From Plantactinospora endophytica (lineage in GTDB: Bacteria > Actinomycetota > Actinomycetes > Mycobacteriales > Micromonosporaceae), in contig NZ_BONW01000024.1 in assembly GCF_016862915.1 (NCBI RefSeq), positions 1 through 64,000 on the forward strand: 64,000 nt of DNA. Reading direction: 5' to 3'. The translations under genes and the position numbers were made by a program. Below the pieces are notes generated by a model that worked only from the letters and a program-made list of their open reading frames with translations, was not told the origin of the DNA and searched no databases. Position 1 is the stretch's first letter. The number at the start of each line of letters is the position of its first letter. Positions 20,851 through 60,472 of the stretch are shown here, piece after piece.

Positions 20851-20898
20851 GGTGGTCCGGTCACCGGCGCCGGGGGTGGTCCGGCTACCGGCGCCGGG
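20851..20898. repeat. 24-bp tandem duplication containing the glucokinase stop codon
   Basis: Two copies (20851-20874, 20875-20898) with two differences. The gene-proximal copy contains the TAG of the glucokinase gene. In the second copy the same codon is TGA, and because 24 is a multiple of three it is an in-frame second stop. Confidence 0.9.
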
Positions 20899-21832
20899 CC
20901 AGGTCGGCCGCGCCGACCATACCGGCCGAGTTGCCCAGCTCAGCGGGGCGGATCTCGGCCACCGGAATCCCGGCACGCGCGGCGAGAGCGTCCAGATAGG
21001 ACCGACGGGTCGGACCCATCAGCAGGTCACCGGCCTCGACCACCCCACCGCCGACGACCAGCACCTGCGGATCGAGGATCTGTGCCATGTCGGCCAGGCC
21101 GATGCCGAGCCAGCGCCCGATCTGCGCGAAGGCCGTACCGGAGACCGGATCACCGGACCGGGCGGCGGCGGTCACCATCGGCCCGGTGACCGCGTCGACG
21201 TCACCGCCGGCCAGTTCGAGCAGGATCGTGGCCCGGGCCGGCTCCTGCCGCGCGCCGGCCCGGGCGAACCGGACCAGGGCGTTGCCGCTGGCGTACTGCT
21301 CGATGCAGCCGAGCCGACCGCAGCCGCAGACGTGGCCGTCCGGTACCGAGAGCATGTGCCCGAGTTCGGCGGCGATGCCGTGCGCGCCGCGCAGCAGCTC
21401 CCCGCCGAGCACGATGCCACCGCCCACCCCGGTGCCGATGGTGAAGAGCACCATCGAGTCGTCGGCGTCCCGGGCGGCGCCGTACCGGAACTCGGCCCAG
21501 GCGGCGACGTTGGCGTCGTTCTCCACGATCACCGGCAGCCCGACGGCGTTGCTGACGTAGTCCCGCAGCGGCTCGTCCCGCCAGGCGATGTTCGGGGCGA
21601 ACAGCACCGTCGACCGGGCGGCGTCGATCCAGCCGGCGGCGCCGATCCCCACGGCGTCCACCTCGTGCTCGGCCGCCAACTCCTTGACGACCTCGACGAT
21701 CACGTCCCGGGTCCGGGCGACGTCGTCGGCGGGAGTGTCCCGGCGAATCCGCGCCCGCACCTCACCGTCGACGTCGACGACCCCGGCGGCCACCTTGGTA
21801 CCCCCGACGTCGACTCCGATGGTCAGCGTCAC
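20885..21832 (-). CDS. glkA: ROK family glucokinase
   Basis: ATP-dependent glucose phosphorylation and, by analogy with Streptomyces GlkA, carbon catabolite repression. 315 aa. ATP-phosphate motif IGVDVGGTKVAAGVVD, catalytic Asp in ENDANVAAWAE, TGVGGGIVLGG, the ROK zinc motif CGCGRLGC and a C-terminal adenosine motif VVGGGVV. Start GTG at 21832 with GGGGAG 7 nt upstream. An in-frame GTG at 21853 is possible. It is grouped with DUF, SRPBCC and fadD neighbours as in Streptomyces. Confidence 0.95.
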   Translation of the reverse strand: MTLTIGVDVGGTKVAAGVVDVDGEVRARIRRDTPADDVARTRDVIVEVVKELAAEHEVDAVGIGAAGWIDAARSTVLFAPNIAWRDEPLRDYVSNAVGLPVIVENDANVAAWAEFRYGAARDADDSMVLFTIGTGVGGGIVLGGELLRGAHGIAAELGHMLSVPDGHVCGCGRLGCIEQYASGNALVRFARAGARQEPARATILLELAGGDVDAVTGPMVTAAARSGDPVSGTAFAQIGRWLGIGLADMAQILDPQVLVVGGGVVEAGDLLMGPTRRSYLDALAARAGIPVAEIRPAELGNSAGMVGAADLARRR

Positions 21833-21938
21833 CGAGCCGCTCCCCTCTGCCACACCGCGCCCTCGCGGTCACTGTCCCGCCACTGCCGCCGTACCGTGCC
21901 CTCGCCACCCGGCGACACCGGCGGACCCGTCCCGGCGG

Positions 21939-23219
21939 TCAGCCGCCCTCGCCGGGCCCGGCCTGCTCGCCGGGACCGGTGCTGACCGGTCCCTCCGGGG
22001 TCCGCGACGCGGGCACCGGTGGTCGTCCGGTGGCCGGCGGCGCGGCGGGCCGGGGCTGGTCCGCCCCGGCCGGGGTCGCCCGGTCCGGACCGGCGGTCGT
22101 CCCGGTCTCCCGGGTTCCGGCCTCGGCACGGGTGGCCGCCGCCCAGACGTCGTCCGGCTCGTCCACCGGCCACGAATCATGCCTGGTACGGGTCGCCTCG
22201 CGCCACACGGTGTCGCGCCACGGGCCCGGCGCGTCGGCCGGCTGGGCCCCCGAGGTGCCGGAGTGACCAGTTGATCCACTTCCGGTGCCCCCGGCCGACC
22301 CTGCTCCGGTGCTCCCGGCCGTTGCCCCTCCGGCGGTGCCGGCCGTCTCTCCTCCGGCGGTGCCGGCCGTCTCTCCTCCAGCGGTGCCGGCCGTTTGTCC
22401 TCCGGGGGTGCCGGCCGGGCGGCCGCCGTCGGTGCGGCGGGCGCTGGGGGCGGTGATCGAGGAGAGCGCGCGCAGCAGGCTGGCCACCCCGGCGGCGAAG
22501 TCACCGGCTCCGGTGGCCAGCCGCTCGGTGAGTTCGGGGCTCGGGTCACGCAGTGCCGCGATCGAGCGGCAGACCGGGCAGACGCAGCACTCGGGATCAC
22601 CGGTGGCGAAACCGGCCCCGAACAGCGCTTCCGGCCCCGGTTGGCCGGCCTGCGGCGGCACCTCTCCCACCGGCGGCACCTCGGCTCCGACACCGCCGGG
22701 TCCGAGACCCGCCCCGGCCGGCCGCGCACCCGCCGCCTGCGCCTCCCCGGCTGCCGACCCGGTCGGCTCAGCCGCCGATTCTTCCGACCACACACCCGAC
22801 CCGTCCGGCTCGGCGGCCGTTTGCGGCGACCGCGCGCCAGATCCGTCCGGCTCGGCGGCCGACATGTTCGGCTGCGGGCTCGCGCGGTGCGGCTCCGCCC
22901 CTGTTGGGTCGGCAGTCGAACCCTCCGACCGCACGCCCGACCCGTGCGGTCGGGCGGGGCGGGACGCGTCGGCGGGTGGCCGGACCGGGCTGTCCGGCGG
23001 CGGCGTGGCCGGCTCCGGACGGCTCGGTCGGGGTACCACGCCGGCCTGGTCCAACACGTCGGAGATCACCTGACCGAGCGGCCCGAACGCGCCGGCCCGA
23101 CCCCGGGCCTCGGACGCGGCCGTCTTGGCCATCGCGAGCGCGGCGGCGACCAGGCGCTCGGCCTCCTCCCGGGCCGAACCCGGGTCGGGCGCTCCCCCGA
23201 ACGAACCACTGTCTCCCAT
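21939..23219 (-). CDS. low-complexity protein with conserved N-terminal and CxxC-type motifs
   Basis: 426-aa protein of unknown function conserved next to glucokinase and SRPBCC genes in actinobacteria. Conserved parts are the N-terminal helix (AREEAERLVAAALAMAKTAA ... FGPLGQVISDVLD) and a central CCVCPVCRSIAALRD segment followed by LTERLATGAGDFAAGVASLL. The rest is Gly/Pro/Ala/Glu-rich and disordered, with SAAEPDGSG-like repeats and three GGETAGTA copies. ATG start with AGAGGAG 7-8 nt upstream. The central four-Cys cluster could bind zinc. Confidence 0.82.
   Translation of the reverse strand: MGDSGSFGGAPDPGSAREEAERLVAAALAMAKTAASEARGRAGAFGPLGQVISDVLDQAGVVPRPSRPEPATPPPDSPVRPPADASRPARPHGSGVRSEGSTADPTGAEPHRASPQPNMSAAEPDGSGARSPQTAAEPDGSGVWSEESAAEPTGSAAGEAQAAGARPAGAGLGPGGVGAEVPPVGEVPPQAGQPGPEALFGAGFATGDPECCVCPVCRSIAALRDPSPELTERLATGAGDFAAGVASLLRALSSITAPSARRTDGGRPAGTPGGQTAGTAGGETAGTAGGETAGTAGGATAGSTGAGSAGGTGSGSTGHSGTSGAQPADAPGPWRDTVWREATRTRHDSWPVDEPDDVWAAATRAEAGTRETGTTAGPDRATPAGADQPRPAAPPATGRPPVPASRTPEGPVSTGPGEQAGPGEGG
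22335..22406. repeat. 24-bp in-frame tandem repeat inside the low-complexity gene
   Basis: Three units at 22335, 22359 and 22383 (core GGTGCCGGCCGTCTCTCCTC) encode repeated GGETAGTA. The period is a multiple of three, so length changes would keep the frame. Confidence 0.85.
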
Positions 23220-23273
23220 GATCGGCTCCTCTACGCCGCACCCGCCCCGGGCGACCGGGGCGACCGGGCCGGT

Positions 23274-23344
23274 GCCGTCACCCCGCCCCGGACCGTCGTC
23301 GCACCCCGGACCGCTGTCGCACCCGGGGCCGTCACCCCGCCCCG
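23274..23344. repeat. 17/18-bp repeat set containing the SRPBCC gene stop codon
   Basis: GCCGTCACCCCGCCCCG occurs exactly at 23274-23290 and 23328-23344, with two related 18-mers between (23291-23308, 23309-23326). The stop codon of the SRPBCC gene (23332-23334) is within the last copy. Confidence 0.8.
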
Positions 23345-23787
23345 TTCAGGGCTTCCACTCGCCGCTTGAGCTGCGTCAACGCGGCATCCATGATCATTTT
23401 TTCGGCCTTGCGGCGGAACATCCCCAGCATCCCGACCGACAACTCGACCTCGAGTGTGTAGGTCACCGTCGAGGTGCCGTCCCCGTTGTCCCCGATGTCG
23501 TACGACCCGTTCTGCACCTTCTGCATCCGGGAGGGCTCCACCAGGTGCCACTCGATCCGGGAGATGTCCTCGGCGTACTCGTACGCCAGGGTGTACTCGT
23601 CGGTCATCACCGAGGCGTCCAGGACGAACCGGACCCGGGCCGGGTAGCCGTCCTCGTACTCCTCGACCACCTCGACCCGCTTGACCGCCTCGGCCCACTC
23701 CGGATAACTCGGAAAGTCGCAGATCACCGCTGTCACCCGAGCCGGCGGCGCGGCGATGACGATGGACTGGGTGGAGGAATCCGCCAT
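23332..23787 (-). CDS. SRPBCC family (polyketide cyclase/dehydrase-like) protein
   Basis: 151-aa START/Bet v1-fold protein with a hydrophobic ligand cavity. QSIVIAAPPARVTAVICDFPSYPEW at the N-terminus, central beta strands (YTLAYEYAEDISRIEWHLVE) and a long C-terminal helix (RKAEKMIMDAALTQLKRRVE). Homologues lie beside fadD15-type genes (Rv2185c in M. tuberculosis), which suggests a lipid-related ligand. The ATG is preceded by GGGAGG at a longer than usual distance (about 12 nt). Confidence 0.9.
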   Translation of the reverse strand: MADSSTQSIVIAAPPARVTAVICDFPSYPEWAEAVKRVEVVEEYEDGYPARVRFVLDASVMTDEYTLAYEYAEDISRIEWHLVEPSRMQKVQNGSYDIGDNGDGTSTVTYTLEVELSVGMLGMFRRKAEKMIMDAALTQLKRRVEALNGAG

Positions 23788-23998
23788 GCCCGGCAGGCTA
23801 CCTCCCAGCGGGGTGAGACCGGCCGACCACCTCGCCCCATTCGTTCCCGGTCGACCCACCTGGCCGGGCGGGCCGGGCCGGTCGAAGGTAGGTTGCGGGT
23901 AGCCCGACCGGCCAGGTTCGGCCGGGTTGCAGGGTTGCCCGACCGGCCCAGGGTCGGTACAGGCGGCACAGGATCGTTACAAGCACGAGGGAGTGCAG

Positions 23999-25813: not shown

Positions 25814-25814
25814 C

Positions 25815-25820: not shown

Positions 25821-25827
25821 CCGTCAG

Positions 25828-27529: not shown

Positions 27530-28198
27530 ATGACCACCAGCCCCACGCCGACCACTCGGACCAAGGTCCTGCTCGTCGACGATCACGACCTGATCCGTAA
27601 GGGCCTGCGGCACGCGTTCGAGCGGGACCGGCAGTTCGAGGTCGTCGGCGAGGCCGCCACCGCCGCCGAGGGGGTACGCCAGGCCGGCGCCCTGCAACCC
27701 GATGTAGTGATCATGGATCTCCGACTTCCCGACGGCAGCGGCCTGGAGGCCACCCGGGCGCTGCGCAAGTCCAGCGCCACCATGGGAATCGTGGTCCTCA
27801 CCATGTACGCGGGCGACGACCAGCTCTTCGGCGCCCTCGAAGCCGGTGCCAGCGCGTTCGTGCCGAAGACCGCCCCCGCCGACGAGGTCGTTGCCGCCGC
27901 CCGGCACGCGGCCTCGTCACCGAGTGCGTTCACCGCCGCCGACCTCGCCGAGGCGATGAAGCGCCGGCTCGCCCCCTCCGGCCCGCAGCTGTCCCCCCGC
28001 GAGGGGCAGGTGCTCCGCCTGCTCGCCGACGGGATGAGCGTCGCCGGCATCGCCAAGCAGCTCTTCGTCAGCGAGTCGACGGCGAAGACGCACATCTCAA
28101 AGCTCTACGAGAAACTGGGTGCGGCCAACCGGGCCCAGGCACTGATGACCGCCCTCCGGCTGGGGCTGCTCGAAGCCCCGGACGCCCCCAAGTTCTGA
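27530..28198 (+). CDS. NarL/FixJ family response regulator
   Basis: 222-aa regulator. Receiver domain 10-130 with acidic pocket VDDHD, phospho-acceptor Asp in VVIMDLRLPDGSG, Thr/Lys switch residues (VVLTMYAG, AFVPKTAPA), and a C-terminal LuxR-type helix-turn-helix (LSPREGQVLRLLADGMSVAGIAKQLFVSESTAKTH). ATG with GGGGAG upstream, 7 bases after the kinase gene, thus co-transcribed. A hairpin follows. Confidence 0.95.
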   Translation: MTTSPTPTTRTKVLLVDDHDLIRKGLRHAFERDRQFEVVGEAATAAEGVRQAGALQPDVVIMDLRLPDGSGLEATRALRKSSATMGIVVLTMYAGDDQLFGALEAGASAFVPKTAPADEVVAAARHAASSPSAFTAADLAEAMKRRLAPSGPQLSPREGQVLRLLADGMSVAGIAKQLFVSESTAKTHISKLYEKLGAANRAQALMTALRLGLLEAPDAPKF

Positions 28199-29557: not shown

Positions 29558-29640
29558 CGCTGTCCGGTCACCTGTTCCGAGCCCGGCCCGACCACCGGTG
29601 TCCCGTCCGCCGATCCCGAACGAGCCGGAGCAGGGGAAAG

Positions 29641-29747
29641 CCGAAGCACGGACGGCCGGAGCACGGACGGCCCGAGCACGGACGGCCCAAGCACGGACGG
29701 CCCAAGCACGGGAGGCCGAAGCACGGGAGGCCGAAGCACGGGAGGGC
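29641..29747. repeat. 15-bp tandem repeat, seven copies, abutting the mannosyltransferase stop
   Basis: GCACGG recurs at 29646, 29661, 29676, 29691, 29706, 29721 and 29736, exactly every 15 bases, in units like GCACGGACGGCCCAA. The array ends three bases from the stop codon of the glycosyltransferase gene at 29751. It fills most of the gap 29558-29750. Confidence 0.92.
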
Positions 29748-29750
29748 CGG

Positions 29751-30875
29751 TCAGTCGGTCAGTAGCTCCGTCATCCGGCGGGCCTGCCGCTCCCAGGGCC
29801 ATTCCCGCTCCACCCAGGCCCGGCCGGCGGCACCCATCCGGCGGGCCAGTTCCGGATCGGCGAGCAGGGTGGCCACCCGGTCGGCGAGCTGCCCGAGGCT
29901 GCGGCCGTCGACGACGTACCCGGTCTCGCCCTCCCGGACCGCGTCCGGAGCGCCGCCGGAGTTCCCGGCCACCACCGGCAACCCGGTGGCGGACGCCTCC
30001 AGGTAGACGATGCCCAGGCCCTCGACGTCCAGCCCGCCGTTGCGGGTCCGGCACGGCATCGCGTAGACGTCCCCGGCCGCGTAGTGCGCCGGCAGCTCCG
30101 CAGTCGGCACCGAACCGGTGAAGACCACGTCGGCGGCGACGCCCGCCCGCCGGGCGAGCTTCTCCAGCGTTCCCCGGTACGGGCCGCCGCCGACCACCAG
30201 CAACGCCGCGCCCGACACCCGACGGCGGATCTCCGGTAGCGCCCGGATCAGCGCGTCCTGACCCTTGCGCGGCACCAGCCGGGAAACGCAGACCACCACC
30301 GGCCGGTCGGCCAGGCCGTGTCGGGCGCGGACCTCGGCCCCGTCCACGTCGGGGTGGTAGACGTCCACGTCCACCCCGGGGGCCAGCCGGCGCAACTCGG
30401 TCCGGCCGCGCAGCACCCGGTCCAGCCGGACCCGGGTGTATTCGCCCAGGTAGGTGGTGACGTCGACGCCGTCACCGATCCGGCGCAGCGCCGACCGGGC
30501 GCCGGGCAGTGCCGCCCAGCCGACCTCGTGACCGTGGGTCAGGGCCACTGCCCGACCGATCCCGGCCCGGCGGCGCAGCCCGGCGGCGAGCAGCCCCAGC
30601 GGGGCGGCGGCACCGAACCAGACGGTGTCGCAGTCGTACGCCCGGGCCAGCTCCGCCGCCCGGCGGGCGACGTGCCGGGTCGGCAGCAGCACGCCGGTCG
30701 GCTCGCGGACCACCTCGAACGGCTGGTCCGCGTCGAACTTGTCGGCGCCGCGCCAGGTGGAGGCGTACACGACCACCGATCCGGCCGGTTGCCGGACCGC
30801 GAGGCCGTGCACGAAGGACTGGATTCCGCCGGGGCGCGGCGGGAAGTCGTTGGTGACGAGCAGGGTCCTGGTCAA
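29751..30875 (-). CDS. pimB: GT4 glycosyltransferase, PimB-like phosphatidylinositol mannosyltransferase
   Basis: 374-aa GT-B enzyme. N-terminal LLVTNDFPPRPGGIQSFVHGLA, donor-binding domain with VSRLVPRKGQDALIRALPEI and the EX7E motif EGLGIVYLEASATGLPVVAG. By similarity and by its place beside fadD15 and the protease gene (Rv2188c in M. tuberculosis) it should add the second mannose to Ac1PIM1 in PIM synthesis. The TTG start overlaps the protease stop (TTGA), so it is translated with it. A tandem repeat follows its stop. Confidence 0.88.
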   Translation of the reverse strand: MTRTLLVTNDFPPRPGGIQSFVHGLAVRQPAGSVVVYASTWRGADKFDADQPFEVVREPTGVLLPTRHVARRAAELARAYDCDTVWFGAAAPLGLLAAGLRRRAGIGRAVALTHGHEVGWAALPGARSALRRIGDGVDVTTYLGEYTRVRLDRVLRGRTELRRLAPGVDVDVYHPDVDGAEVRARHGLADRPVVVCVSRLVPRKGQDALIRALPEIRRRVSGAALLVVGGGPYRGTLEKLARRAGVAADVVFTGSVPTAELPAHYAAGDVYAMPCRTRNGGLDVEGLGIVYLEASATGLPVVAGNSGGAPDAVREGETGYVVDGRSLGQLADRVATLLADPELARRMGAAGRAWVEREWPWERQARRMTELLTD

Positions 30876-32131: not shown

Positions 32132-32345
32132 GCCGTGGCCCGTACCCACTCGGTCATCCGCTCCGCCCTTCGCCGCGACGCCGTACCGGTCGGACCGGCG
32201 CTGCCGTCCGTCGGCTGCGCCGTGGCCGACGGCCTTCGCCGGCCCGATCGCGGGGCAATCCTATGCCGGATCGCCGGTCGGAGGTGTCGGGCGGGCCGCC
32301 TCCGGTTGAGCCACGCGGCGACGCCGGACCGGCTCCAGTCAGCCC

Positions 32346-32512
32346 ACCGGGCGGCGCCGGGCCGGGTCCGATCAGGCCACCGGGCGACCTCAGGTCAGGC
32401 CACCCGGCGACGTCGGGCCGGCTCAGGTCAGGGCCATCCGGCGACCTCGGGTCAGGCCACCCGGCGACGCCGAGCCGGCTTCGGGTCAGGCCACCCGGCG
32501 ACGTCGGCGCCG
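32346..32512. repeat. tandem repeat of about 25-33 bp containing the CxxC-protein stop codon
   Basis: Five units on the minus strand, each with the core TCGCCGGGTGGCCTGACC. The first unit includes the last codons and TGA of the small CxxC protein gene (32486-32488). Units alternate in length, so a 57-58-bp higher-order unit is also visible. The rest of the gap 32150-32345 holds no gene that I can support. Confidence 0.85.
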
Positions 32513-32716
32513 GGTGGCGAGCCGCAGCGGTGCCGAGACCGGGGCGTCCAGGATCTCGACGTCGAAGCCGGCCCGGGTGAACACCTCGATGGCGTGCATC
32601 TCGTCGGCGGTCAGCGCGGCCTGCGCGGGCGGCTGGTCCAGCAGGGCACTCACCAGGCACCCGGAGCAGGCCGCAGCCGCACCCCGCAGGGTGCAACTGT
32701 CGCAGTCGATGAGCAT
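32486..32716 (-). CDS. conserved small protein with two CxxC motifs
   Basis: 76-aa cytosolic protein. Two CxxC pairs (C5-x-x-C8 and C17-x-x-C20, in MLIDCDSC and ACSGCLV) form a likely zinc-binding knuckle, followed by a helical ALTADEMHAIEVFTRAGFDVEI and a very basic tail RRRRRR. I recall similar proteins in many actinobacteria, with no known function. ATG with GAGGAGG 4 nt upstream. The basic tail is partly encoded by the first unit of a tandem repeat. Confidence 0.82.
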   Translation of the reverse strand: MLIDCDSCTLRGAAAACSGCLVSALLDQPPAQAALTADEMHAIEVFTRAGFDVEILDAPVSAPLRLATRRRRRRVA

Positions 32717-32863
32717 CGACCCTCCTCAAGCAGCGGCGGCGATCGCTGTTGTTGTCCCGCCACCGTCCGTGACATCGACGCTAGAACAGGGGTACGACAA
32801 AACCTCCGTTGCCACCCAACGGCCCCATCCGGATGATCAACGGACAAAGAGGCGGGGCAGGCG

Positions 32864-32975
32864 GCAGCGGTCCTCTGGAGGGGATGGGCGGCAGCGGTCG
32901 CCAGGAGTGGGACGGGTGGGCAGCAGTCGCCAGGAGCAGACGGGCGGCGAGCGGTCGTCAGGAGCGGGCGAGTCG
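32864..32975. repeat. repeat of about 28 bp containing the NYN gene stop codon
   Basis: Four imperfect units at about 32864, 32891, 32920 and 32947 share GCAGCGGTCGCCAGGAG. The unit next to the gene includes the TGA of the NYN-domain gene (32958-32960). The gap 32717-32863 holds no gene that I can support. Confidence 0.8.
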
Positions 32976-34649
32976 GCGGAGCAGGGAGTCCGCGCCGAGC
33001 GGGTAGGCGCCGTGCCGGCGTACCCCGTCGGCGACCTCGCGGTCGGAGGAGACCACCACGATCGGCCGGCCGGCCGGCTCGGCCCGGACCAGCCGGCGGA
33101 TCAGGTCGTCGGCGGTCTCCCCCTTCCGGGAGAAGAGCACCCGGACGCCGCGTGGCGAGGGCGGCAGCCCGTGCATCCGCTCGGCGCCGTCGAAGACGAC
33201 CGTCACCTCGTCACCGGTCTGTGCCGCGATCCCGCCCAGGCCGGTGATCAGGCGCTTGCGCTGCTGCTCAAGGGACATGTCACCGAAACCGCGCTTGGTG
33301 ACGTTGTAGCCGTCCACCACCAGGTGCGCCCGGGGCAGCGCCAGCAGCTCGTCCAGCCGGGCGGGGTCGTCCGTGTCCAGGGCCCGGGCCGAGGTGGTCG
33401 CGGCCGGGCGCTCGGCGAACGCGTCGGCGACGTAGTCCGCCGGCAACCGGTCGGCGGGGTCCAGGGCGAGTTCCCGGCGCAGTCCGACGGCGGCCCGGCC
33501 GATCGTCTCCAGCAGCAGCCAGAGCCGGGCGTCGTCGACCGACCGTGCCTCCTTGGCGGTCTGCCGGACCGCGCCCGCGGTCGCCTCCGCCTCGGCCAGC
33601 CGGGCCCGTACCCGGCGCAGCTCCGCCTCGTGGTCGGCCGCCGCCCGGCTGGCCCGCCCTTTCTCGGTGGCCAGCAGCTCGGCCGCCCGCCGCTGCCCGG
33701 CCTGGGTCTCCCGGAGCGACCGGCCCAGTACCCGGTTCTCCTCGCGGAGCTGACCCACCTCCTCGCGGAGCCGGGCCACCTCGTCGCGCAGCTTGTCGGC
33801 TTCGACCTTCGCCACCGCACGGTCGTGCTCGGCCCGGGTGGCCCGCTGTTCCGCCTCCCGGACCAGTTCCGCGACGACCGCGCTGTCGGCCTCGGCCCGG
33901 ACCGCCGCCCCGGCGTCCTCGACCAGGTCACGCCAGCCCGCCGGCCGGGTCAGGTAGGCGAGCGCGGCGACCTCCACCGGATCGGCCGCGGCCGGACTGC
34001 CCCCGGAGACCACCACGGAACCCAGCTCGCCGGCCTCGGACAGCACCCGGCTGGCCACCCGCTGCCGGAACAGCGGATCGGCGGCGAGCTGGATGGCGAT
34101 CGGTGCACCGCCGAGCCGGGCCCGCCGGTTCGGCGCGAACTTGGCGACCCGGCGCAGCGGCGGTGGCAGTTCGTCGGCCGGCAGCGTCGGCAGCGCGGCG
34201 GCGGCCAGGCTGACGATCCGGGCCCGGACCGGCTCCGGCAACGTCGGCTCCGGCTCCCGATCAACCGACTCTCGATCGGCCGGCGCATGATCGTCCGACT
34301 CACGATCGTCCTGCACCTGCACACGATCGACTGACTCAGGATCGGCCGACTCAGGATCGGCCGACTCACGATCAACCGGCTCCTGATCGACCTGCGCACG
34401 ATCAACCAGATCACGATCAACCGGCGCAGGATCGGCCGACTGCTGGTCGACGGGTGGCTCGGGTTCGGTGCCGACGGAATCGGGCACGGTGTCGGTGAGC
34501 AGGGTCGGCTCCGGCTCGTCGGCAGCGGGTACGGCCGGATCGGGCTCGTCGCTGCCGCCGTCCCGCCCGGGATCGCCAGCACGCTCGGAGCGCGCGAGCT
34601 GCGCCGCCTCCTCCGGGAGGCGGTCGTCGGACGGTTCGGTGCGGGGCAT
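32958..34649 (-). CDS. NYN (PIN-like) domain RNA-binding/ribonuclease protein with coiled coil
   Basis: 563-aa protein. Residues 1-140 are acidic, disordered and repetitive. About 140-250 is a conserved helical region (AKFAPNRRARLGGAPIAIQLA). About 255-350 is a coiled coil (KVEADKLRDEVARLREEVGQ). About 430-560 is a YacP/Rae1-type NYN nuclease domain with acidic residues in VVDGYNV, VVFDGAE, ETADDLIRRLV and VVSSDREVAD. It probably acts on RNA. ATG with GGGAG about 9 nt upstream. The disordered head is encoded by 15-bp repeats. Confidence 0.9.
   Translation of the reverse strand: MPRTEPSDDRLPEEAAQLARSERAGDPGRDGGSDEPDPAVPAADEPEPTLLTDTVPDSVGTEPEPPVDQQSADPAPVDRDLVDRAQVDQEPVDRESADPESADPESVDRVQVQDDRESDDHAPADRESVDREPEPTLPEPVRARIVSLAAAALPTLPADELPPPLRRVAKFAPNRRARLGGAPIAIQLAADPLFRQRVASRVLSEAGELGSVVVSGGSPAAADPVEVAALAYLTRPAGWRDLVEDAGAAVRAEADSAVVAELVREAEQRATRAEHDRAVAKVEADKLRDEVARLREEVGQLREENRVLGRSLRETQAGQRRAAELLATEKGRASRAAADHEAELRRVRARLAEAEATAGAVRQTAKEARSVDDARLWLLLETIGRAAVGLRRELALDPADRLPADYVADAFAERPAATTSARALDTDDPARLDELLALPRAHLVVDGYNVTKRGFGDMSLEQQRKRLITGLGGIAAQTGDEVTVVFDGAERMHGLPPSPRGVRVLFSRKGETADDLIRRLVRAEPAGRPIVVVSSDREVADGVRRHGAYPLGADSLLRRLARS
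34259..34444. repeat. 15-bp GATC-centred repeat inside the NYN gene
   Basis: GATC recurs every 15 bases from 34259 to 34304 and again from 34325 to 34430, with a 6-bp insertion between (12 units). Units resemble GATCGGCCGACTCAG and encode acidic pentapeptides such as DRESA and DPESV. The period keeps the reading frame. Confidence 0.9.
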
Positions 34650-36683: not shown

Positions 36684-38465
36684 GTGGACCTCGACGCCGG
36701 CCACGGCGCCGCCTTTGGGAGCGCCCGCCCGACGGAGATCACGCTGAGCAGGCGACTGCGCTCGTTGCTCTCCTGGCCGTCCGCTGAGGACGATCCGGTG
36801 ACCAACCTGGTCCGGGCCCACCGCAGCGTGCATCCCAGCGCCGACGTCGGGGTGCTGCGCCGCAGCTACGCCATTGCGGAGAGCATGCACCGGGGGCAGT
36901 TCCGCAAGAGCGGCGAGCCCTACATCACCCATCCGCTGGCGGTGGCGCAGATCTGTGCCGAGTTGGGGATGGACACCGTCACCCTGGTCGCCGCGCTGCT
37001 GCACGACACCGTCGAGGACACCCGTTACACCCTCCAGGCGCTGACCGGCGACTTCGGACGCGAGGTGGCGCACCTGGTCGACGGAGTGACCAAGTTCGAC
37101 AAGGCGTTCTACGGCAAGGCGGCCGAGGCCGAGACGATCCGAAAGATGATCATAGCTGCGGGCAAGGACGTCCGGGTGCTGATCATCAAGCTCGCCGACC
37201 GACTGCACAACATGCGTACCCTCGGGGTCCGCTCGCCGGCCTCCCGGGCCCGGATCGCCGGGGCGACCCAGGAGGTGCTGGTCCCGCTCTGCGACCGGCT
37301 CGGCATCCAGGCGCTCAAGCGGGACCTGGACGACGTGGTGCTGCAACACCTCGAACCCGAGGCGTACGAGCGGATCCACGAGCACGTGAGCAGCCGGCCG
37401 GGCTGGGCCGGCTACCTGGAAGACGTGGTGGCCCAGGCCAAGGTGGTGCTCCGGCGCGACAAGATCGTCTCTAACGTACGGCGCCGGGACCGGCACTACT
37501 ACTCGATCTGGAAGGACACCGTCGCCCGGGACCAGGCCACTCCGTTCGACCTGCCCCGGATCGCGATCGTGGTGGACGGTCCGGACACCGACTGCTACGC
37601 CGCGCTCGGCTCGATCCACGGGCTCTGGCGGCCGGTCGCCGGGCGGTTCAAGGACTTCATCGCCGCGCCGAAGAACAACCTCTACAAGTCCCTGCACACC
37701 ACCGTGATCGGCCCGAACGAGCGGACCGTCGAGGTGCTGATCCGGACCAAGACGATGGACCGGTCCGCCGAGTACGGCATCGCCGCCGACTACCGCTACC
37801 CCAGGCCGGGGGTCGACGCGGCGGGCAGCGCCGAACAGCTCGACTGGTTGCAGCGGGTGCTCAACTGGGAGCGGGACACCGCCGACCCGGCGCAGTTCCT
37901 CCAGTCGTTGCGTTGCGACCTCGCCGAGACCCAGATCCAGGTCTTCGCCGAGGGCCGACAGGTGGTGCTCCCCGCCGGCTCCACCCCGGTCGACCTGGCG
38001 TACGAGTTGGGCCCGCACCGGGGCGACCACTGTCTCGCCGCGAAGATCAACGGTCGGCTGGCGCCGCTCTCGTCGGAACTCGACGAGGGCGACGTGGTGG
38101 AGATCTTCAGCGAGACCGACGCGCAGGGCGAGTTCGACCTGGCGGTCGCCCCGCCCGGGCCGCGCAAGGAGTGGCTCGGCTTCGTCAAGTCGCCGCACGC
38201 GCAGATGCAGATCAACCGCTGGTTCGCCGAGCACCAGGAACCGGCGATCTCGATCACCGACAAGGTCCGGCTCGGCCGGGCCACGATCGGACTGACCCTG
38301 CGCAAGCACAACCGTGGGCTCGCCAACGACCTTCCGCTGCGCCGGCTGGCCGAGGAGCAGGGCTACCCCGACCTGGAAACCCTGCTGGTCGCGGTGGTCG
38401 ACCGCACGGTCGAGCCGGACGTGGTGGTCGAGCAGTTGATCGCCATGGTGGACCACCAGGAGTGA
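36684..38465 (+). CDS. RelA/SpoT homologue (HD hydrolase, altered synthetase, TGS)
   Basis: 593-aa RSH protein, shorter than the main Rel because it lacks the C-terminal zinc-finger and ACT domains. The HD hydrolase domain (about 55-200) is intact: YITHPLAVA, LLHDTVEDT with His107-Asp108, and KLADRLHNMRTL. The synthetase domain (about 260-380) keeps RFKDFIAAPK and LYKSLHTTVIGP, but the usual basic SIYRKM reads SIWKDT, EIQIRT reads EVLIRT and AAHW reads AADY. TGS at about 415-480. So (p)ppGpp hydrolysis is likely and synthesis doubtful. The GTG has AGGAGGTG 6 nt upstream. Confidence 0.9.
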   Translation: MDLDAGHGAAFGSARPTEITLSRRLRSLLSWPSAEDDPVTNLVRAHRSVHPSADVGVLRRSYAIAESMHRGQFRKSGEPYITHPLAVAQICAELGMDTVTLVAALLHDTVEDTRYTLQALTGDFGREVAHLVDGVTKFDKAFYGKAAEAETIRKMIIAAGKDVRVLIIKLADRLHNMRTLGVRSPASRARIAGATQEVLVPLCDRLGIQALKRDLDDVVLQHLEPEAYERIHEHVSSRPGWAGYLEDVVAQAKVVLRRDKIVSNVRRRDRHYYSIWKDTVARDQATPFDLPRIAIVVDGPDTDCYAALGSIHGLWRPVAGRFKDFIAAPKNNLYKSLHTTVIGPNERTVEVLIRTKTMDRSAEYGIAADYRYPRPGVDAAGSAEQLDWLQRVLNWERDTADPAQFLQSLRCDLAETQIQVFAEGRQVVLPAGSTPVDLAYELGPHRGDHCLAAKINGRLAPLSSELDEGDVVEIFSETDAQGEFDLAVAPPGPRKEWLGFVKSPHAQMQINRWFAEHQEPAISITDKVRLGRATIGLTLRKHNRGLANDLPLRRLAEEQGYPDLETLLVAVVDRTVEPDVVVEQLIAMVDHQE

Positions 38466-38518
38466 GATCGGCGGTCCACCGGGAGTGAGAAGCGTGGTCC
38501 ACCGGGAGTGAGAGCTGT
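38450..38518. repeat. 23-bp tandem repeat containing the RSH stop codon
   Basis: Three units at 38450, 38473 and 38496 with core GGTCCACCGGGAGTGAGA. The first holds the last codons and TGA (38463-38465) of the RSH gene, and each later unit repeats GAGTGA. Confidence 0.92.
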
Positions 38519-40109: not shown

Positions 40110-40397
40110 GTGATCACCGCGATCGTCCTGATCGACTGCGCCACCGACTCGATCCCCGAGGTGGCCGAGGCGCTGGCCGCGCTGCCCGGCGTCAGCGAGG
40201 TCTACTCGGTCGCCGGTCACGTCGACCTGATCGCGGTCGTCCGGGTGCGCGAGTTCGAGCAGATCGCCGAGGTGATCGCCGGACGCATCTCGAAGACGGA
40301 GGGCGTGATCGGCACCGAGTCGCACATCGCCTTCCGGGCGTACTCGCAGCACGACCTGGAGGAGGCGTTCGCGATCGGCCTCCCGGACACCGACTGA
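40110..40397 (+). CDS. stand-alone Lrp/AsnC ligand-binding (RAM) domain protein
   Basis: 95-aa protein that consists of only the alpha/beta ligand-binding domain of Lrp-type regulators (AIVLIDCATDSIPEVAEALAALPGV, VYSVAGHVDLIAVVRV, GVIGTESHIAFRAYS), without the DNA-binding part. It may sense amino acids and act by oligomerisation. Conserved near trpD in actinobacteria. GTG with GAGGAG 7 nt upstream. A TAGCAT near 40023 could be its -10 box. Confidence 0.9.
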   Translation: MITAIVLIDCATDSIPEVAEALAALPGVSEVYSVAGHVDLIAVVRVREFEQIAEVIAGRISKTEGVIGTESHIAFRAYSQHDLEEAFAIGLPDTD

Positions 40398-40514
40398 GTC
40401 CACCTCTCCCGGACTCCCGCCGAGTCCACTCTCTCGTCCGGCACGGACTGCACACACCGCCCACGCCGAGTCCGCCTCTCTCGTCGGGCACCAACTGCAC
40501 GCACCGCCCACGCC
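40394..40514. repeat. 46-bp tandem repeat extending from the Lrp-domain stop codon
   Basis: Two units (40420-40465 and 40466-40511) start GCCGAGTCC and share CTCTCTCGTC and CACCGCCCAC. A partial copy begins at the gene end itself, where GACTGAGTCCACC includes the TGA. The remaining gap to 40595 holds no gene that I can support. Confidence 0.82.
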
Positions 40515-44195: not shown

Positions 44196-45149
44196 TTACA
44201 CCGCGCTGCCGGCGGCCCGTTCCCGGGCCTCCTGGCGGTCCAGTTCCCGGTCCATCCGGCGGGCCTCCCGCTCGGACTGCCGGACCCACTGCACCACGAG
44301 CACGGCGAGCATGGTCACGCTGACGAACTCGCCGCCGGCCCAGAGGATGCCGCCGGCCACCTTCTGATCGTTCCACGGGTCGGACCAGGCCAGCGCCAGC
44401 GAGGGGTACCAGTCGCCGCCGAAGAGCGTGGTGCTCTGCATCACCGTGAGCCCGAGCACGGTGTGGAACGGCACCGAGAGCACCATCAGCAGGGCCCGGG
44501 CCGGGTACGGCCAGCGGCCGGGCAGCGGGTCGAGCCCGACCAGCGGCCAGAAGAACAGGCAGCCGGTGAGGATGAAGTGCGCGTGCACCAGCTCGTGCCC
44601 GAACGAGTTCTCCAGGGTCCACCGGTACACCCCGGAGAAGTACAGCACGAACGGGTTGACCACGAAGATCGCGTACGCGAAGAGCGGGAAGGTGACGACC
44701 TTCGCCACCCGGCTGTGCAGCACCGCGAGCAGCCGCTTGCGCGGCGCCTTGCCGAGGGTACGCAGTGCCAGCGTCACCGGAGCGCCGAGCGCGAGGAAGA
44801 TCGGCGCGACCATCGACAGCACCATGTGCTGGACCATGTGCACCGACAGCAGGCTGGTGTCGTACGCCCCCAGTCCGCTCAGCGTCACCGAGGCGATCCC
44901 GCCGAGCCCCGGCCCGAGGAAGAGCACGGTACGCAGCACCGGCCAGGAGTGCCCGCGCACCCGCAGCCGGTGTACGCCGTACAGGTAGAGCCCGGCGGCC
45001 AGCACCAGGCCGACGGCGAGCCAGCTGTTCAGGGTGGCCTCGGTGAAGATGGCGGAGACGGTGAACGGTGCCGTCTCGGCGCCCCCACCGGCGAGAACGG
45101 CCGGTGGCGGGAGCACCGCCGAGGCGGATGCGGGATCGAGGTGCAGCAC
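44196..45149 (-). CDS. ctaG: cytochrome c oxidase assembly protein CtaG (Caa3-type)
   Basis: 317-aa membrane protein with seven hydrophobic helices, CtaG/DUF1404-like (Caa3_CtaG). Conserved His/metal-type motifs in [40 protein letters not shown] and [14 protein letters not shown]. It assists copper delivery to aa3 oxidase. The GTG at 45149 follows TAGCCT by 7 nt with no SD, so it is leaderless. The tail is charged and basic. Divergent from ctaE. Confidence 0.9.
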
Positions 45150-45156
45150 GTTTTTC

Positions 45157-45162
45157 AGGCTA
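45157..45162 (-). promoter_or_regulatory. -10 element TAGCCT of ctaG
   Basis: TAGCCT on the minus strand, 7 nt before the GTG of ctaG. The 109-base gap to ctaE must hold divergent promoters. Confidence 0.45.
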
Positions 45163-45246
45163 GGCCAGACGAAGCGGGCGAGGCACGTCACCCCGTCCGA
45201 CGAGGCAGTTAGGCCACCCCGACGATGGCCGATGCCGATCAGGGGC

Positions 45247-45252
45247 AATAAT
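45247..45252 (+). promoter_or_regulatory. -10-like element AATAAT of the ctaE-qcr operon
   Basis: AATAAT in the only AT-rich run of the gap, 6 nt before GTG 45259, which has no Shine-Dalgarno sequence. Confidence 0.4.
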
Positions 45253-45258
45253 GACCGC

Positions 45259-45858
45259 GTGACTGCGGCCTCAGCCATTGACAAGAGCCGGATCCACTCG
45301 CTGACCCGACCCAACATGGTCAGCGTCGGGACGATCGTGTGGCTCTCGAGCGAACTCATGTTCTTCGCGGCGTTGTTCGCGATGTACTTCTCCATCCGGG
45401 CGGCGGCGCCCGAGCAGTGGGAGAAGCACACCGAGGCACTGAACATCCCGTACGCGACGACGTTCACGGTGATCCTGGTGCTGTCCTCGGTCACCTGCCA
45501 GATCGGCGTCTTCGCCGCGGAGCGGGGTGACGTGCACGCGCTGCGCCGCTGGTTCACGCTCACCTTCGTGATGGGCCTGATCTTCGTCCTGGGTCAGCTC
45601 AACGAGTACCGCGAGCTGGTACACGAGGGGGTGAAGATCAACGCGGACGGGTACGGCTCGGTCTTCTACCTGACCACCGGCTTCCACGCGCTGCACGTGA
45701 CCGGCGGTCTGGTCGCCTTCATCATCTTCATGATCCGGACCACCATGGGCCGGTTCACCCCGGCGCAGGCGACCTCGGCGATCGTCGTCTCCTATTACTG
45801 GCACTTCGTCGACGTGGTCTGGATCGCGCTCTACGGCATGATCTACTGGCTTCAGTGA
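45259..45858 (+). CDS. ctaE: cytochrome c oxidase subunit III
   Basis: 199-aa integral membrane subunit of aa3 oxidase. Five to six helices, conserved [47 protein letters not shown] and the C-terminal [20 protein letters not shown]. First gene of ctaE-qcrC-qcrA-qcrB. Leaderless-type GTG start. Confidence 0.95.
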
Positions 45859-49612: not shown

Positions 49613-50189
49613 CTCGTTTCGGGGCCGATCACCGCACTTCTCCGACCCCTGTCCAGGACTTCTTCCGACCCCCTGTCCAGGTCGGAACTCTCCCGCTCCC
49701 GCCCGAGGGCGCAACGGGGCGGCGGGATCACCTCACCGGGCCGCTGTCGAGCTGGGCGCACAGACGGGGCACTCGGGCGACGAGGGGCACGCCAGGGACT
49801 CAGGGCGGCACGGTATTGCCCCGGTCTCCGGGCCGACGTACACCTGCACCGCCTCGCGGCGCCGGGACGCCCGGAGCGGCCTGCGGCGGGGTGGCCTCCG
49901 CCGGTGGGCGCACAGACGGGGCAGCTCGACAGTCTCTCCGCCGCAACCTATCCGGCCGAGCCGGTCCCGGTCAGAGCCCCGGTCGGCACCGGCCCGAGCC
50001 GATTTCGGTCGGTACCGGCCTGGACCGCCCGGCCACACTGCCGGCCGGCTTCCGGAGGGCGGCACAGGTGGACAGGCCAACCGGGACGGGCCTGGGCGGT
50101 CCGTCGGCCGCCAGGGCATACCCCGGGTACCCCCCGAAGCAGGTCTCCGCCGTACGGCCGGTTCAGCAGGGCCGACGGGGGCCGTACGA
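49613..50189. other. 577-base gap with a 19-bp repeat pair and no firm gene
   Basis: TGGGCGCACAGACGGGGCA is repeated exactly at 49753-49771 and 49905-49923. It is flanked by TGTCGAGC on the outside of the first copy and GCTCGACA on the outside of the second, so the two copies lie between inverted octamers. On the minus strand the repeat reads Cys-Pro-Val-Cys-Ala and a Cys-rich ORF of about 38 codons (49733 to about 49849) contains CPSSPECPVCAPS. No convincing ribosome binding site. The stretch could be a decayed zinc-ribbon gene. Confidence 0.35.
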
Positions 50190-54655: not shown

Positions 54656-54735
54656 CGCGCGGGACGACCCGCTCAGGACACCAGTATGTAGCTGTTGATC
54701 GGGATGTTTCGGCTGAAACCGGAACAAAGCACCGA

Positions 54736-56458: not shown

Positions 56459-56526
56459 GGATCACGAGTGTGGCAGCCCACATCGGCGCGACCGGAAAGC
56501 GGCCCCCGCTGTGGAAGCATGGGTAC

Positions 56527-57696: not shown

Positions 57697-57714
57697 CGGC
57701 TCCAAACGACTACT

Positions 57715-57792
57715 GACAGTGATCGGCAGGGTACGGATTCCTGCCACTGTCCCCGTTTCGTGCCATCCGTTGCGCGGTGACCGCTCTTTTTT
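57715..57792 (+). terminator. hairpins and U-run after nadA, in the murA leader
   Basis: A bulged hairpin GACAGT-GATC-GGCAGG / CCTGCC-ACTGTC (57715-57751) is followed by a short GCGG-TGA-CCGC hairpin (57774-57784) and a run of six T at 57787-57792. The T run is rare in this window. A candidate murA -10 box TATGCT follows at 57806-57811. Confidence 0.6.
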
Positions 57793-57959
57793 CGTCACCG
57801 AGCGCTATGCTGCCCGAGGCCGTGACAGAGCCGGGTCGGGACGCGCACACCACGCCGCGCCCGCCCAGCCACGGGGGGCAACGGCAGTGTGGACCGGATG
57901 GTTCACCCTCGCGGACAGCATCGACGTAGAGCAGCAGCATCGACCCGCTGGAGGTTGCG

Positions 57960-59315
57960 TTGACCGACGACGTCCTGGTCGTACACGGAGGTACGCCCCT
58001 TTCCGGGCAGATCCGGGTGCGCGGCGCGAAGAATCTCGTCTCCAAGGCGATGGTCGCCGCCCTGCTCGGTGACGAACCCAGCCGCCTCTTCGACGTACCG
58101 CGGATCCGCGACGTCGAGGTGGTCCGGGGGCTGCTCGAACTGCACGGGGTCAAGGTCACCGACGGCGCCGAGGACGGCGAACTGGTCTTCGACCCGGCCA
58201 ACGTCGAGAGCGCCAGCACGGACGAGATCAACGTGCACGCCGGGTCGAGCCGGATCCCGATCCTGTTCTGCGGTCCACTGCTGCACCGGCTCGGCCACGC
58301 GTTCATCCCCGACCTGGGCGGCTGCCACATCGGCCCCCGCCCGATCGACTTCCACATCCAGGCGCTCCGGCAGTTCGGCGCGGTGGTGGACAAGGCGCCC
58401 GAGGGGATGCACCTGACCGCGCCGACCGGGCTGCACGGGACCAAGTTCGAGCTGCCGTACCCGAGTGTGGGCGCCACCGAGCAGGTGCTGCTGACGGCAG
58501 TGCTGGCCGAGGGCGTCACCGAGCTGCGCAACGCGGCCGTCGAGCCGGAGATCATCGACCTGATCTGCGTACTCCAGAAGATGGGCGCGATCATCAAGGT
58601 GCACACCGACCGGGTGATCGAGATCCAGGGCGTACCCCGACTGGGCGGTTACACGCACCGGCCGATCCCGGACCGGATCGAGGCGGCGAGCTGGGCCGCC
58701 GCCGCGCTGGCCACCGGTGGCCGGGTCGAGGTGCTCGGTGCCGAGCAGGCCGACATGATGACCTTCCTCAACGTCTTCCGCTCGGTCGGCGGGGCGTACG
58801 AGGTGACCGACACCCGGCCGCCCCGGCAGGGCAGCCCGGGCCAGGAGGGCGGGATCCGGTTCTGGCACCCCGGCGGCGAACTGCGGGCGGTGGCGCTGGA
58901 AACGGACGTACACCCGGGGTTCATGACCGACTGGCAGCAGCCGCTGGTGGTCGCGCTGACCCAGGCCCGGGGCCTGTCGATCGTGCACGAGACGGTGTAC
59001 GAGCAGCGGCTCGGCTACACCGAGGCGCTGAACAAGATGGGCGCCACCATCCAGGTCTACCGGGACTGCCTCGGCGGTACCCCCTGCCGGTTCGGCCGGC
59101 GCAACTTCAAGCACTCGGCGGTGATCGCCGGGCCGTCCAAGCTGCACGCCGCCGACCTGGTCATCCCCGACCTGCGGGCCGGGTTCAGCCACCTGATCGC
59201 CGCGCTGGCCGCCGAGGGCACCTCCCGGGTCTACGGCGTGGATCTGATCAACCGTGGCTACGAGGACTTCGAGGCCAAGCTCGCCGCCCTCGGCGCGCAC
59301 GTCGAGCGCCCGTAG
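57960..59315 (+). CDS. murA: UDP-N-acetylglucosamine 1-carboxyvinyltransferase
   Basis: 451-aa first committed enzyme of peptidoglycan synthesis. RVRGAKNLVSKAMVAALLG with the PEP-binding Lys-Asn, active Cys in LGGCHIGPRPIDFH, and the actinobacterial form of the C-terminal loop (DVHPGFMTDWQQP, DLRAGFSHLIAAL). It resembles Streptomyces MurA (SCO2949), which has the same WHPGG insertion. TTG start with GGAGG 5 nt upstream and a leader of about 140 nt. Confidence 0.95.
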   Translation: MTDDVLVVHGGTPLSGQIRVRGAKNLVSKAMVAALLGDEPSRLFDVPRIRDVEVVRGLLELHGVKVTDGAEDGELVFDPANVESASTDEINVHAGSSRIPILFCGPLLHRLGHAFIPDLGGCHIGPRPIDFHIQALRQFGAVVDKAPEGMHLTAPTGLHGTKFELPYPSVGATEQVLLTAVLAEGVTELRNAAVEPEIIDLICVLQKMGAIIKVHTDRVIEIQGVPRLGGYTHRPIPDRIEAASWAAAALATGGRVEVLGAEQADMMTFLNVFRSVGGAYEVTDTRPPRQGSPGQEGGIRFWHPGGELRAVALETDVHPGFMTDWQQPLVVALTQARGLSIVHETVYEQRLGYTEALNKMGATIQVYRDCLGGTPCRFGRRNFKHSAVIAGPSKLHAADLVIPDLRAGFSHLIAALAAEGTSRVYGVDLINRGYEDFEAKLAALGAHVERP

Positions 59316-59346
59316 CCGGCACGGAAGGGCCGAACGCCGAAACGCC

Positions 59347-59399
59347 AGGACCGGACGCCGGGCCCCGGACGTCCGGCTCAGGACCGGACGCCGGGCCCC
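59347..59399. repeat. 33-bp tandem duplication after murA
   Basis: AGGACCGGACGCCGGGCCCC occurs at 59347-59366 and 59380-59399. It is the region between the murA stop and its terminator. Confidence 0.8.
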
Positions 59400-59434
59400 C
59401 GAGGGCCGGAGCCGGACGACGGAGGTAGCACGCT

Positions 59435-59470
59435 GCGGGGCCGGGTGAGACGCTGCTCACCCGGCCCCGC
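59435..59470 (+). terminator. murA terminator
   Basis: Perfect 15-bp stem (59435-59449 with 59456-59470) and 6-nt ACGCTG loop. Confidence 0.9.
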
Positions 59471-59526
59471 GCGGCACCGCTCGGCCGCCCGCCTACCGCG
59501 AGGTGCGGTGCCCGTCGGCGGTTGGC

Positions 59527-59532
59527 TACCCT
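59527..59532 (+). promoter_or_regulatory. -10 element TACCCT of the DUF3043 gene
   Basis: TACCCT followed by 6 nt and GTG 59539, with no Shine-Dalgarno sequence. Confidence 0.45.
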
Positions 59533-59538
59533 TGCCCC

Positions 59539-60147
59539 GTGCCGTCGCTGTTTCGCCGTAAGCCCACCGACCTCGTCGAGGAGGCCACCGCCGAGGTGAC
59601 CCCCGCCGAGGAGTCCGCGTCCGCCCGCCCCCGGGGCTACACCCCGAGCAAGAAGGAGCTGGGTAGGGAGACTCCGAAGCGGCCGACCGCCGGGCGCCGC
59701 GCCGTCGGCGACACCAAGCCGCTCACCAAGCAGGAGGCGCGGGAGCGGCGCCGGCAGTTGCGCGCCGAGTCGGCGGCCGAGTTCCGCAAGGAGGGCGGTC
59801 CCCGGGACCGGGCCCCGGAGCGCGGGCTCGCCCGCGACGTGGTGGACTCCCGGCGTACGGTCGGCACCTGGTTCTTCGGCGGCGCCCTGGTGGTGCTGAT
59901 CGGTTCGGCGAACACCATGCCACCGGAGGTGCGGTTCGCCTCCAACCTGCTCTGGGGGCTGCTGGCGATCGCCCTGGTGGTCGACTCGGTGTTGATCTCA
60001 CGAAAGATCAAGAAGCTGGTACGGCAGCGCTTCCCCAACACCGACCAGCGGATGGGCTCGCTCTACCTCTACGCGATCATGCGCTCGATCACCTTCCGCC
60101 GGATGCGTGCCCCGGTCCCCCGGGTCAACCTCGGCGACAAGATCTGA
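59539..60147 (+). CDS. DUF3043 membrane protein
   Basis: 202-aa protein of the actinobacterial DUF3043 family (Rv2206 in M. tuberculosis). Long basic/charged N-terminus (KKELGRETPKRPTAGRRAVG), GLARDVVDSRRTVGTWFFGGALVV, two membrane helices (115-165) and RRMRAPVPRVNLGDKI at the end. Function unknown. Leaderless-type GTG start. Confidence 0.9.
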   Translation: MPSLFRRKPTDLVEEATAEVTPAEESASARPRGYTPSKKELGRETPKRPTAGRRAVGDTKPLTKQEARERRRQLRAESAAEFRKEGGPRDRAPERGLARDVVDSRRTVGTWFFGGALVVLIGSANTMPPEVRFASNLLWGLLAIALVVDSVLISRKIKKLVRQRFPNTDQRMGSLYLYAIMRSITFRRMRAPVPRVNLGDKI

Positions 60148-60197
60148 GCCACGTCGGCCGGGTCACGTCAGCCGGCTCACGTCAGTCGGGTCACGTC
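60148..60197. repeat. 14-bp tandem repeat starting at the DUF3043 stop codon
   Basis: Units at 60148, 60162, 60176 and a partial copy at 60190, with core GTCACGTCAGCCGG. The first unit begins at the base after the TGA. From 60198 to 60332 there is no gene I can support. Confidence 0.88.
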
Positions 60198-60332
60198 CCG
60201 CTGCTCAGTCCGCTCTGAGCGCGTTGTCGAACGAGCAGTGTGCCCGGGAGTCAAGAACGTGACTCTCAGGCACACTCGTGCACGGAGACATGATCTCCCG
60301 CCGCAGGCTCGGCACGGCCGTCCGCTCACGAG

Positions 60333-60472
60333 ACGCCGAGCAGCCAGATCCGCCCACGAGACGCCGAGCAGCCGGACCCGCTCACCGAACGCCGAGCCGT
60401 CAGAACCGCCCACCAGACGCCGAGCGGCCGAATCCGCTCACGGAACGCCGAGCAGCCTGAGCAGCGCTGCCG
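60333..60472. repeat. 28-bp tandem repeat containing the azlD stop codon
   Basis: ACGCCGAGC recurs at 60333, 60361, 60389, 60417 and 60445, exactly every 28 bases. The copies at 60417 and 60445 include the last codons and TGA of azlD (60438-60440), and the other three lie beyond the gene. Confidence 0.93.

Follow-up and report, generated by a model that had tools for sequence, protein, structure and literature searches.

Bacterial variable-number tandem repeats (VNTRs), or minisatellites, are head-to-tail arrays of 10-100 nt units that differ in copy number among strains of the same species, and mycobacterial interspersed repetitive units (MIRUs) form one shared unit family found at many loci of the genome. 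In the Mycobacterium tuberculosis complex, VNTR3239 (ETR-F) is described as a clade-specific array with varied copy structure filling the gap between rnc and fpg1, which is only 1-54 bp long in the other mycobacteria listed (PMC2734929); MIRUs are described as apparently mobile and as having a coupled open reading frame (ORF), their insertions being at start codons (PMC12548453), and intergenic TAACTGA direct repeats of Beggiatoaceae are the subject of one title (PMC4679880). None of the titles listed in our literature search dealt with tandem repeats that lie at the 3' ends of bacterial genes. The present study deals with ten tandem-repeat arrays at gene 3' ends in a 64-kb stretch (referred to as the window) of contig 24 (NZ_BONW01000024.1) of Plantactinospora endophytica, the genome of which is a 90-contig draft of 9.68 Mb. 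These arrays are probably the result of ongoing tandem duplication filtered by tolerance, and not a working signal.

The window had a base composition of 69-75% GC, measured in 4-kb steps. Arrays were called using Tandem Repeats Finder (TRF) and gene functions were checked by Pfam. All ten arrays named in a preliminary description of this DNA were present, with near edges from 25 nt inside the gene to 17 nt past the stop codon (offsets were measured from the gene 3' end, negative values being within the gene), and consisted of head-to-tail copies of GC-rich units in the 10-100 nt size range, with a TRF match of 70-100% (mostly below 97%). Seven were on the reverse strand: those of the genes for an EEP protein (20057-20743; array 19934..20039, periods of 27 and 55 nt, edge +17; PF03372), glucokinase (ROK) (20885-21832; array 20851..20909, 24 nt, edge -25, the first copy being the gene tail), an SRPBCC protein (23332-23787; array 23286..23333, 18 nt, edge -2), a GT4 glycosyltransferase (29751-30875; array 29635..29750, 15 and 45 nt, edge 0, directly past the stop), a CxxC protein (32486-32716; array 32317..32507, 23, 33, and 57 nt, edge -22), an NYN-domain protein (32958-34241; array 32860..32979, 28 nt, edge -22), and azlD (60438-60746; array 60321..60457, 28 and 56 nt, edge -20). 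Those on the forward strand belonged to the genes for RSH (RelA/SpoT) (36798-38465; array 38453..38513, 23 nt, edge -13), an Lrp/AsnC-domain protein (40110-40397; array 40380..40514, 26 and 47 nt, edge -18), and a DUF3043 protein (59539-60147; array 60150..60197, 14 nt, edge +2). Except for that of the CxxC protein, which had no Pfam match, all ten gene names were supported by Pfam at the family level: the glycosyltransferase, previously named mannosyltransferase, was supported only as a member of group 1, and the SRPBCC name rests on Polyketide_cyc2, which we take to be an SRPBCC member. There were no Rfam matches at the gathering score in the window.

Chance was tested against shuffled gaps in a 544-kb sample of the own genome: 45 arrays (score of at least 60, period of at least 12) were found in 276 gaps of at least 60 nt, whereas five dinucleotide shuffles of the same gaps gave 0, 0, 0, 0, and 2. 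The distribution among gap types was analyzed in the own genome (G000) and six congeners (G001-G006; median identity of window orthologues, 87-95%), using gaps of 40-350 nt without the window and its syntenic stretches, which left G000, G003, G004, and G006; density figures were limited to these shorter gaps because gaps longer than 350 nt hide genes. The number of arrays per kb of array-free gap was 2.23 in convergent gaps (26 arrays, 110 gaps), 0.77 in co-directional gaps (37 arrays, 337 gaps), and 0.15 in divergent gaps (3 arrays, 95 gaps), and the last value disagrees with an equal frequency in gaps that touch no stop codon. Unit lengths modulo 3 (remainders of 0/1/2) were 10/9/7 in the convergent and 14/9/14 in the co-directional gaps of this set, and the lack of a strong bias suggested little hidden coding sequence there. 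Four further genera of the family showed this order as well, with 2.12, 0.33, and 0 per kb, respectively (5, 5, and 0 arrays). In co-directional gaps of 60-700 nt of the same four genomes, 37 of 48 arrays were nearer the 3' end (p = 0.0002), and only two arrays in all gap types crossed a gene start (12.2 expected); at +1 to +30 upstream of starts, arrays were not depleted relative to random placement in their own gaps (13 vs. 9.7). The bias of arrays toward the 3' side of genes is real. Four genomes at the class level, sampled at 100 kb each, had too few gaps for a profile, and their array densities varied widely. In one of them (G083; L174-L178; 73% GC), arrays covered 30% of co-directional gap bases, the highest value of 14 genome samples, which missed genes may inflate, the called coding share being only 70%.

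In many cases, the gene tail was itself the first copy. A tail copy was scored when a 20-nt word, of which 11 nt or more came from the gene end and its stop codon, recurred with at least 16 of 20 matches in the next 120 nt. Among 715 gene ends followed by 60 nt or more of gap, in a set that took in the window and syntenic loci, 41 had such a copy, compared with 7/2145 for random partner genes and 5/813 for gene starts read outward; the density at gene starts is, therefore, not the same as that at gene ends. Without the window and syntenic loci, the count was 23/515 (14 convergent and 9 co-directional). The NYN gene of G006 was followed by three full copies and one partial copy of its last 18 nt at a spacing of 23 nt (4.6 copies by TRF), and these 18 nt showed no more than two changes in the other congeners and the own genome. 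Since the gene tail is conserved and the copies lie behind it, the direction of copying is given: the gene end was the first copy. Arrays made of the gene's own tail were also found in the G003 gene orthologous to that at 27530-28198, the GT4 glycosyltransferase gene of G002 and G004, azlD of G000 and G004 (the G004 array has a 41-nt unit and likewise reaches into the azlD end), and the Lrp gene of G000 and G002. The local process proposed in the preliminary description was borne out, as were the duplication of gene ends and the extension of the copies into the 3' space.

The end of the CxxC gene (32486-32510 on the reverse strand, reading GTG GCC TGA) differed by four letters from G002, G004, and G006 and by one from G003, and its letters agreed with the array copies. 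To judge from these letters, this gene end may have been overwritten by an array copy (conversion), with an ordinary change as the alternative.

The arrays turned over between species. The set examined comprised 33 orthologous 3' gaps in 187 species cells, with arrays scored at 50 or more not farther than 150 nt from the stop; an array was present in 45 cells and absent from 142. Between species, 27 of 32 unit pairs from the same gene were below the similarity cut-off of 0.83; among the five pairs at or above it, three came from a single array that species share downstream of the gene at 44196-45494 (38-47 nt past its stop, with similar units in three congeners) and two shared the gene tail. 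None of 389 control pairs from different genes reached 0.83, in agreement with the earlier statement that units differ from gene to gene and are not one mobile repeat. The NYN gene end carried different arrays in three congeners (40, 20, and 23 nt). Among 80 loci kept for this gene end, nine had an array at -40 to +220, with differing units, 71 had none, and no tail copy was found at 16 of 20 matches or better; these counts speak against NYN as a special site. The distance from the RSH stop to a conserved downstream motif was 38-41 nt in five congeners, 62 nt in G006, and 84 nt in the own genome, the excess of the latter over G002 and G004 being 46 nt (2 x 23). The Lrp gene end had a 25-nt array in G002 and a 20-nt array in G006, and the glucokinase orthologue had no array in the five congeners with coverage there.

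Array units were short (15-46 nt for the middle 80%) and present in two to approximately four copies. Loops of these lengths generally lie beyond the reach of mismatch repair. The ends of duplications were analyzed in strict two-copy exact duplications pooled over 14 genome samples: a direct repeat of at least 4 nt was found at the ends of 23/48 duplications outside called genes and 14/30 in coding DNA, compared with a chance expectation of about 3%. All of the 79 exact duplications in called coding DNA had lengths divisible by 3, indicating that a sieve by tolerance is at work. For actinobacteria in general, NucS mismatch repair is described in a review as not correcting short indels (PMC8228993).

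In the proposed mechanism, short tandem duplications would begin and end at short direct repeats, by slippage or a microhomology-linked event in replication or repair, and the duplicated units would subsequently expand and decay. They would originate in coding and non-coding DNA alike and then be sieved by tolerance: only multiples of three would survive within genes, duplications upstream of genes would upset the promoter, leader, or ribosome site, and those behind genes would be free. Where a duplication straddles the stop codon, the protein would stay as it was, since the first copy still forms the complete end of the gene, and the DNA farther downstream would not be interrupted; arrays would, as a result, look as if they were seeded on gene ends. 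That slippage or microhomology-linked repair is the molecular act, that the arrays are neutral, and that the 3' bias stems from tolerance are inferences on our part.

The preliminary description had gone further and regarded the stop codon as the seed. The fraction of 20-mers that recur downstream was profiled with longer gaps included. It formed a plateau of 4-5% over the initial 100 nt of 3' gap, continued into the gene as a shoulder roughly one unit long, and had fallen to the coding background by approximately 30 nt within the gene; when the window and syntenic loci were removed, values were 3-6% with the same shape, and there was no peak at the stop codon in either data set. A simulation with uniform placement, in which straddling of the stop was allowed, units and copy numbers were derived from the data, and the level was scaled to the plateau, tracked the convergent profile by eye (with no formal fit test). 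The window itself was richer in arrays than the remainder of the own-genome sample: among gaps of 60-350 nt, those with an array were 7/22 in the window vs. 10/117 elsewhere for co-directional gaps, 3/8 vs. 10/41 for convergent gaps, and 1/4 vs. 0/32 for divergent gaps. An array edge touched the stop in 10 cases in the window against a null value of 3.9 (p = 0.0008), compared with 17 against 14.3 (p = 0.14) in the own sample without the window. In the pooled test of 90 arrays in gaps of 60-700 nt, which used the genomes minus the window and syntenic stretches, edges at -30 to +20 of the stop numbered 46 vs. 38.0 (p = 0.015), those at -30 to 0 numbered 25 vs. 23.8 (p = 0.42), and those at +1 to +30 numbered 28 vs. 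20.9 (p = 0.05). Outside the window, the enrichment of arrays in 3' space was strong and a special attraction to the stop codon was weak.

Several points weigh against duplication filtered by tolerance as the full account. In co-directional tails of all data, the profile at offset -15 was 22/450, and the simulation gave 6 to 7. The gene caller was home-made and misses genes: array units modulo 3 were 63:8:11 in gaps longer than 350 nt and 42:25:36 in gaps of 350 nt or less (counted with the window and syntenic loci), and the 48 duplications assigned as non-coding were 28:12:8, some of them lying in missed genes. The comparison between species used one genome per species. Array-bearing genes recurred across species somewhat more than expected (32 pairs, with 24.5 expected when gap length was disregarded, p = 0.04, and 26.4 expected when gaps were stratified by length, p = 0.09). 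The convergent density was approximately 3-fold higher than the co-directional one, which tolerance alone need not yield, and, with family genomes taken in, this difference was seen at matched array-free lengths of 40-80 nt (8/55 convergent vs. 5/120 co-directional, p = 0.026) and 80-130 nt (10/39 vs. 7/109, p = 0.003), the classes of 130-200 and 200-350 nt showing no significant difference (p = 0.40 and 0.21). The first of these points arose from the window and syntenic loci: once they were removed, co-directional tail copies (9/325) were fewer than gap copies (17/325). Because the plateau has no peak and the tail excess comes from these loci, a peak at the stop codon was rejected, seeding on the stop as such was not upheld, and we conclude that gene ends are where tolerance starts and are no special seed.

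The convergent excess bears on the best-surviving alternative, namely, that duplication is linked to transcription: ribosome exit or convergent transcription, through naked RNA, R-loops, and positive supercoiling, would raise breakage or replication stalling, so that 3' ends, and gaps between convergent genes in particular, would actively produce duplications instead of simply tolerating them. The gradient from convergent to co-directional to divergent gaps, its recurrence in the four other genera, and the convergent excess in the two shorter length classes are all consistent with this explanation. Between gap types, the tail/gap contrast was not significant (p = 0.53 and 0.60), whereas the per-gene-end edge contrast was (17/196 convergent vs. 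7/350 co-directional, p = 0.0007; family genomes included). Against a transcription-linked origin, the convergent profile was a plateau, as under uniform placement; the tolerance model predicts the same order of gap types; and exact duplications were found in coding DNA too, in frame. Stronger constraint on co-directional gaps (operons and leaders) may suffice for the convergent excess, which is not fully explained. A transcription-linked origin is unlikely in our assessment, and it is similarly doubtful that gene 3' ends, chiefly convergent ones, are true mutational hot spots in these actinobacteria, where transcription or replication conflict would create microhomology-linked duplications at a high rate and each species would rewrite its 3' regions from its own gene tails. 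If they were, array density would be a genome-wide record of transcription ends. The convergent excess poses the question of tolerance or of duplications made by convergent transcription.

A selected 3' function, the other possibility raised in the preliminary description, would mean that terminators, RNA-stabilizing structures, or back-up stops are built anew in each species. The slight recurrence at the same genes, the palindromes in some units, and the similar units behind the gene at 44196-45494 in three congeners point in this direction. The copies themselves do not: their stop triplets were 0.85-0.90 identical, similar to the neighboring letters, and copy lags modulo 3 were 11/11/19 of 41, showing no frame preference, and a back-up stop codon or a frame function was unsupported because the copies keep neither preferentially. 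Folding of the 90 nt from the stop, compared between groups of gene ends and not between single arrays, gave a mean z of -1.01 with arrays (n = 104) and -1.54 without (n = 150; p = 0.10), and there was no C/G strand bias at array gene ends (p = 0.35); a terminator or Rho-type function was rejected in the absence of any folding or C/G excess over ordinary 3' gaps. With the species-specific turnover, which left 142/187 species cells and 71/80 NYN gene-end loci without an array, selection for such elements appears improbable.

A mobile or interspersed family (MIRU-like or REP/MITE-like) inserting at gene ends is suggested by a palindromic interspersed element that some congeners carry right past stops, and was rejected for the arrays because their units were unrelated between genes (0/389 at 0.83 or higher, and 5/32 even for the same gene), the palindrome had no exact match in the own genome, and the first copy of tail arrays was the gene's own conserved end; it is very remote as an explanation. 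An assembly artefact or chance in GC-rich sequence is just as hard to credit, in spite of the draft state of the own genome, since the same pattern was found in the single-contig G004 and shuffled gaps were nearly free of arrays.

The palindromic element is approximately 49 nt long (AAGGAAGGGCCCCTTCTTA, approximately 11 nt, AAGAAGGGGCCCTTCCT) and was found in congeners and in the family (e.g., L276, L282, L286, L288, and L298). Thirty loci fetched of 90 matches yielded 25 distinct copies, 22 of which were within -5 to +10 nt of a called stop and none at a start; in several copies, the first two letters of the element completed the stop codon TAA of the gene. Exact matches (both strands, some double-counted) numbered 36 in G001, 34 in G003, 16 in G006, 3 in G016, and 1 in G005; there were none in G000, G002, and G004, and the three loci tested had no Rfam match.

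Further arrays were present in the window. One in a convergent gap, 27 nt off a called stop (9856..9950, 40 nt), is of the same kind and was absent from the earlier list; another at +54 from the stop in a convergent gap (5025..5142, 24 nt) is of the same kind or a piece of an uncalled ORF; and a two-copy duplication of 24 nt (49636..49681) was located in a convergent gap at +72 from the stop. The arrays at 10385-10435 and 23891-23981 were in divergent gaps. Those at 34250-34441 and 22291-22443 are most likely coding, being in long ORFs that are open through the array. The former concerns the NYN-domain protein, the true start of which is probably at 34649: its N-terminal extension (34250-34649) would be made up of in-frame repeats of five residues, and congeners have a coding-like sequence of other, partly repetitive make-up upstream of NYN. 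The latter is in an ORF of 426 amino acids on the reverse strand (21939-23219) that the gene caller missed; its repeats at 22291-22443 are 24 nt long and in frame, and the interval of this ORF contained other arrays in four congeners.

If duplication filtered by tolerance is the correct reading, much of the 3' space would be shaped by tandem duplication and not by selection for terminators, gene-end repeats should be equated with function only with caution, and the arrays would allow duplications to be counted in bacteria in which NucS mismatch repair is reported to leave indels uncorrected (PMC8228993). On present evidence, the arrays belong to a type of repeat that is already known and are instructive in their anatomy; they are not a new functional system. 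They resemble bacterial intergenic VNTRs or minisatellites such as VNTR3239 in being clade-specific arrays of 10-100 nt head-to-tail units in a gene gap, and differ from what is described for that locus in that they often include the tail of the upstream gene and seldom cross starts, the present comparison being at the species level only. They share with MIRUs a location in actinobacterial gene gaps and a tie to the gene boundary, whereas their units are unrelated between genes (0/389 at 0.83 or higher) and attached to the stop side. The tandem repeats of archaeal Borgs are described as recent and of independent origin, with unit lengths that can be divided by three within genes but mostly cannot in the gaps between them (PMC9879509). 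The same length rule was found here in coding DNA (79/79) and in gaps of 40-350 nt (10/9/7 and 14/9/14), a bias modulo 3 persisting in wider gap sets with uncalled genes. Borg units are, however, described as perfect and A-enriched, in hosts nearly without them (PMC9879509), whereas the arrays of the present study are mostly imperfect, GC-rich, and chromosomal.

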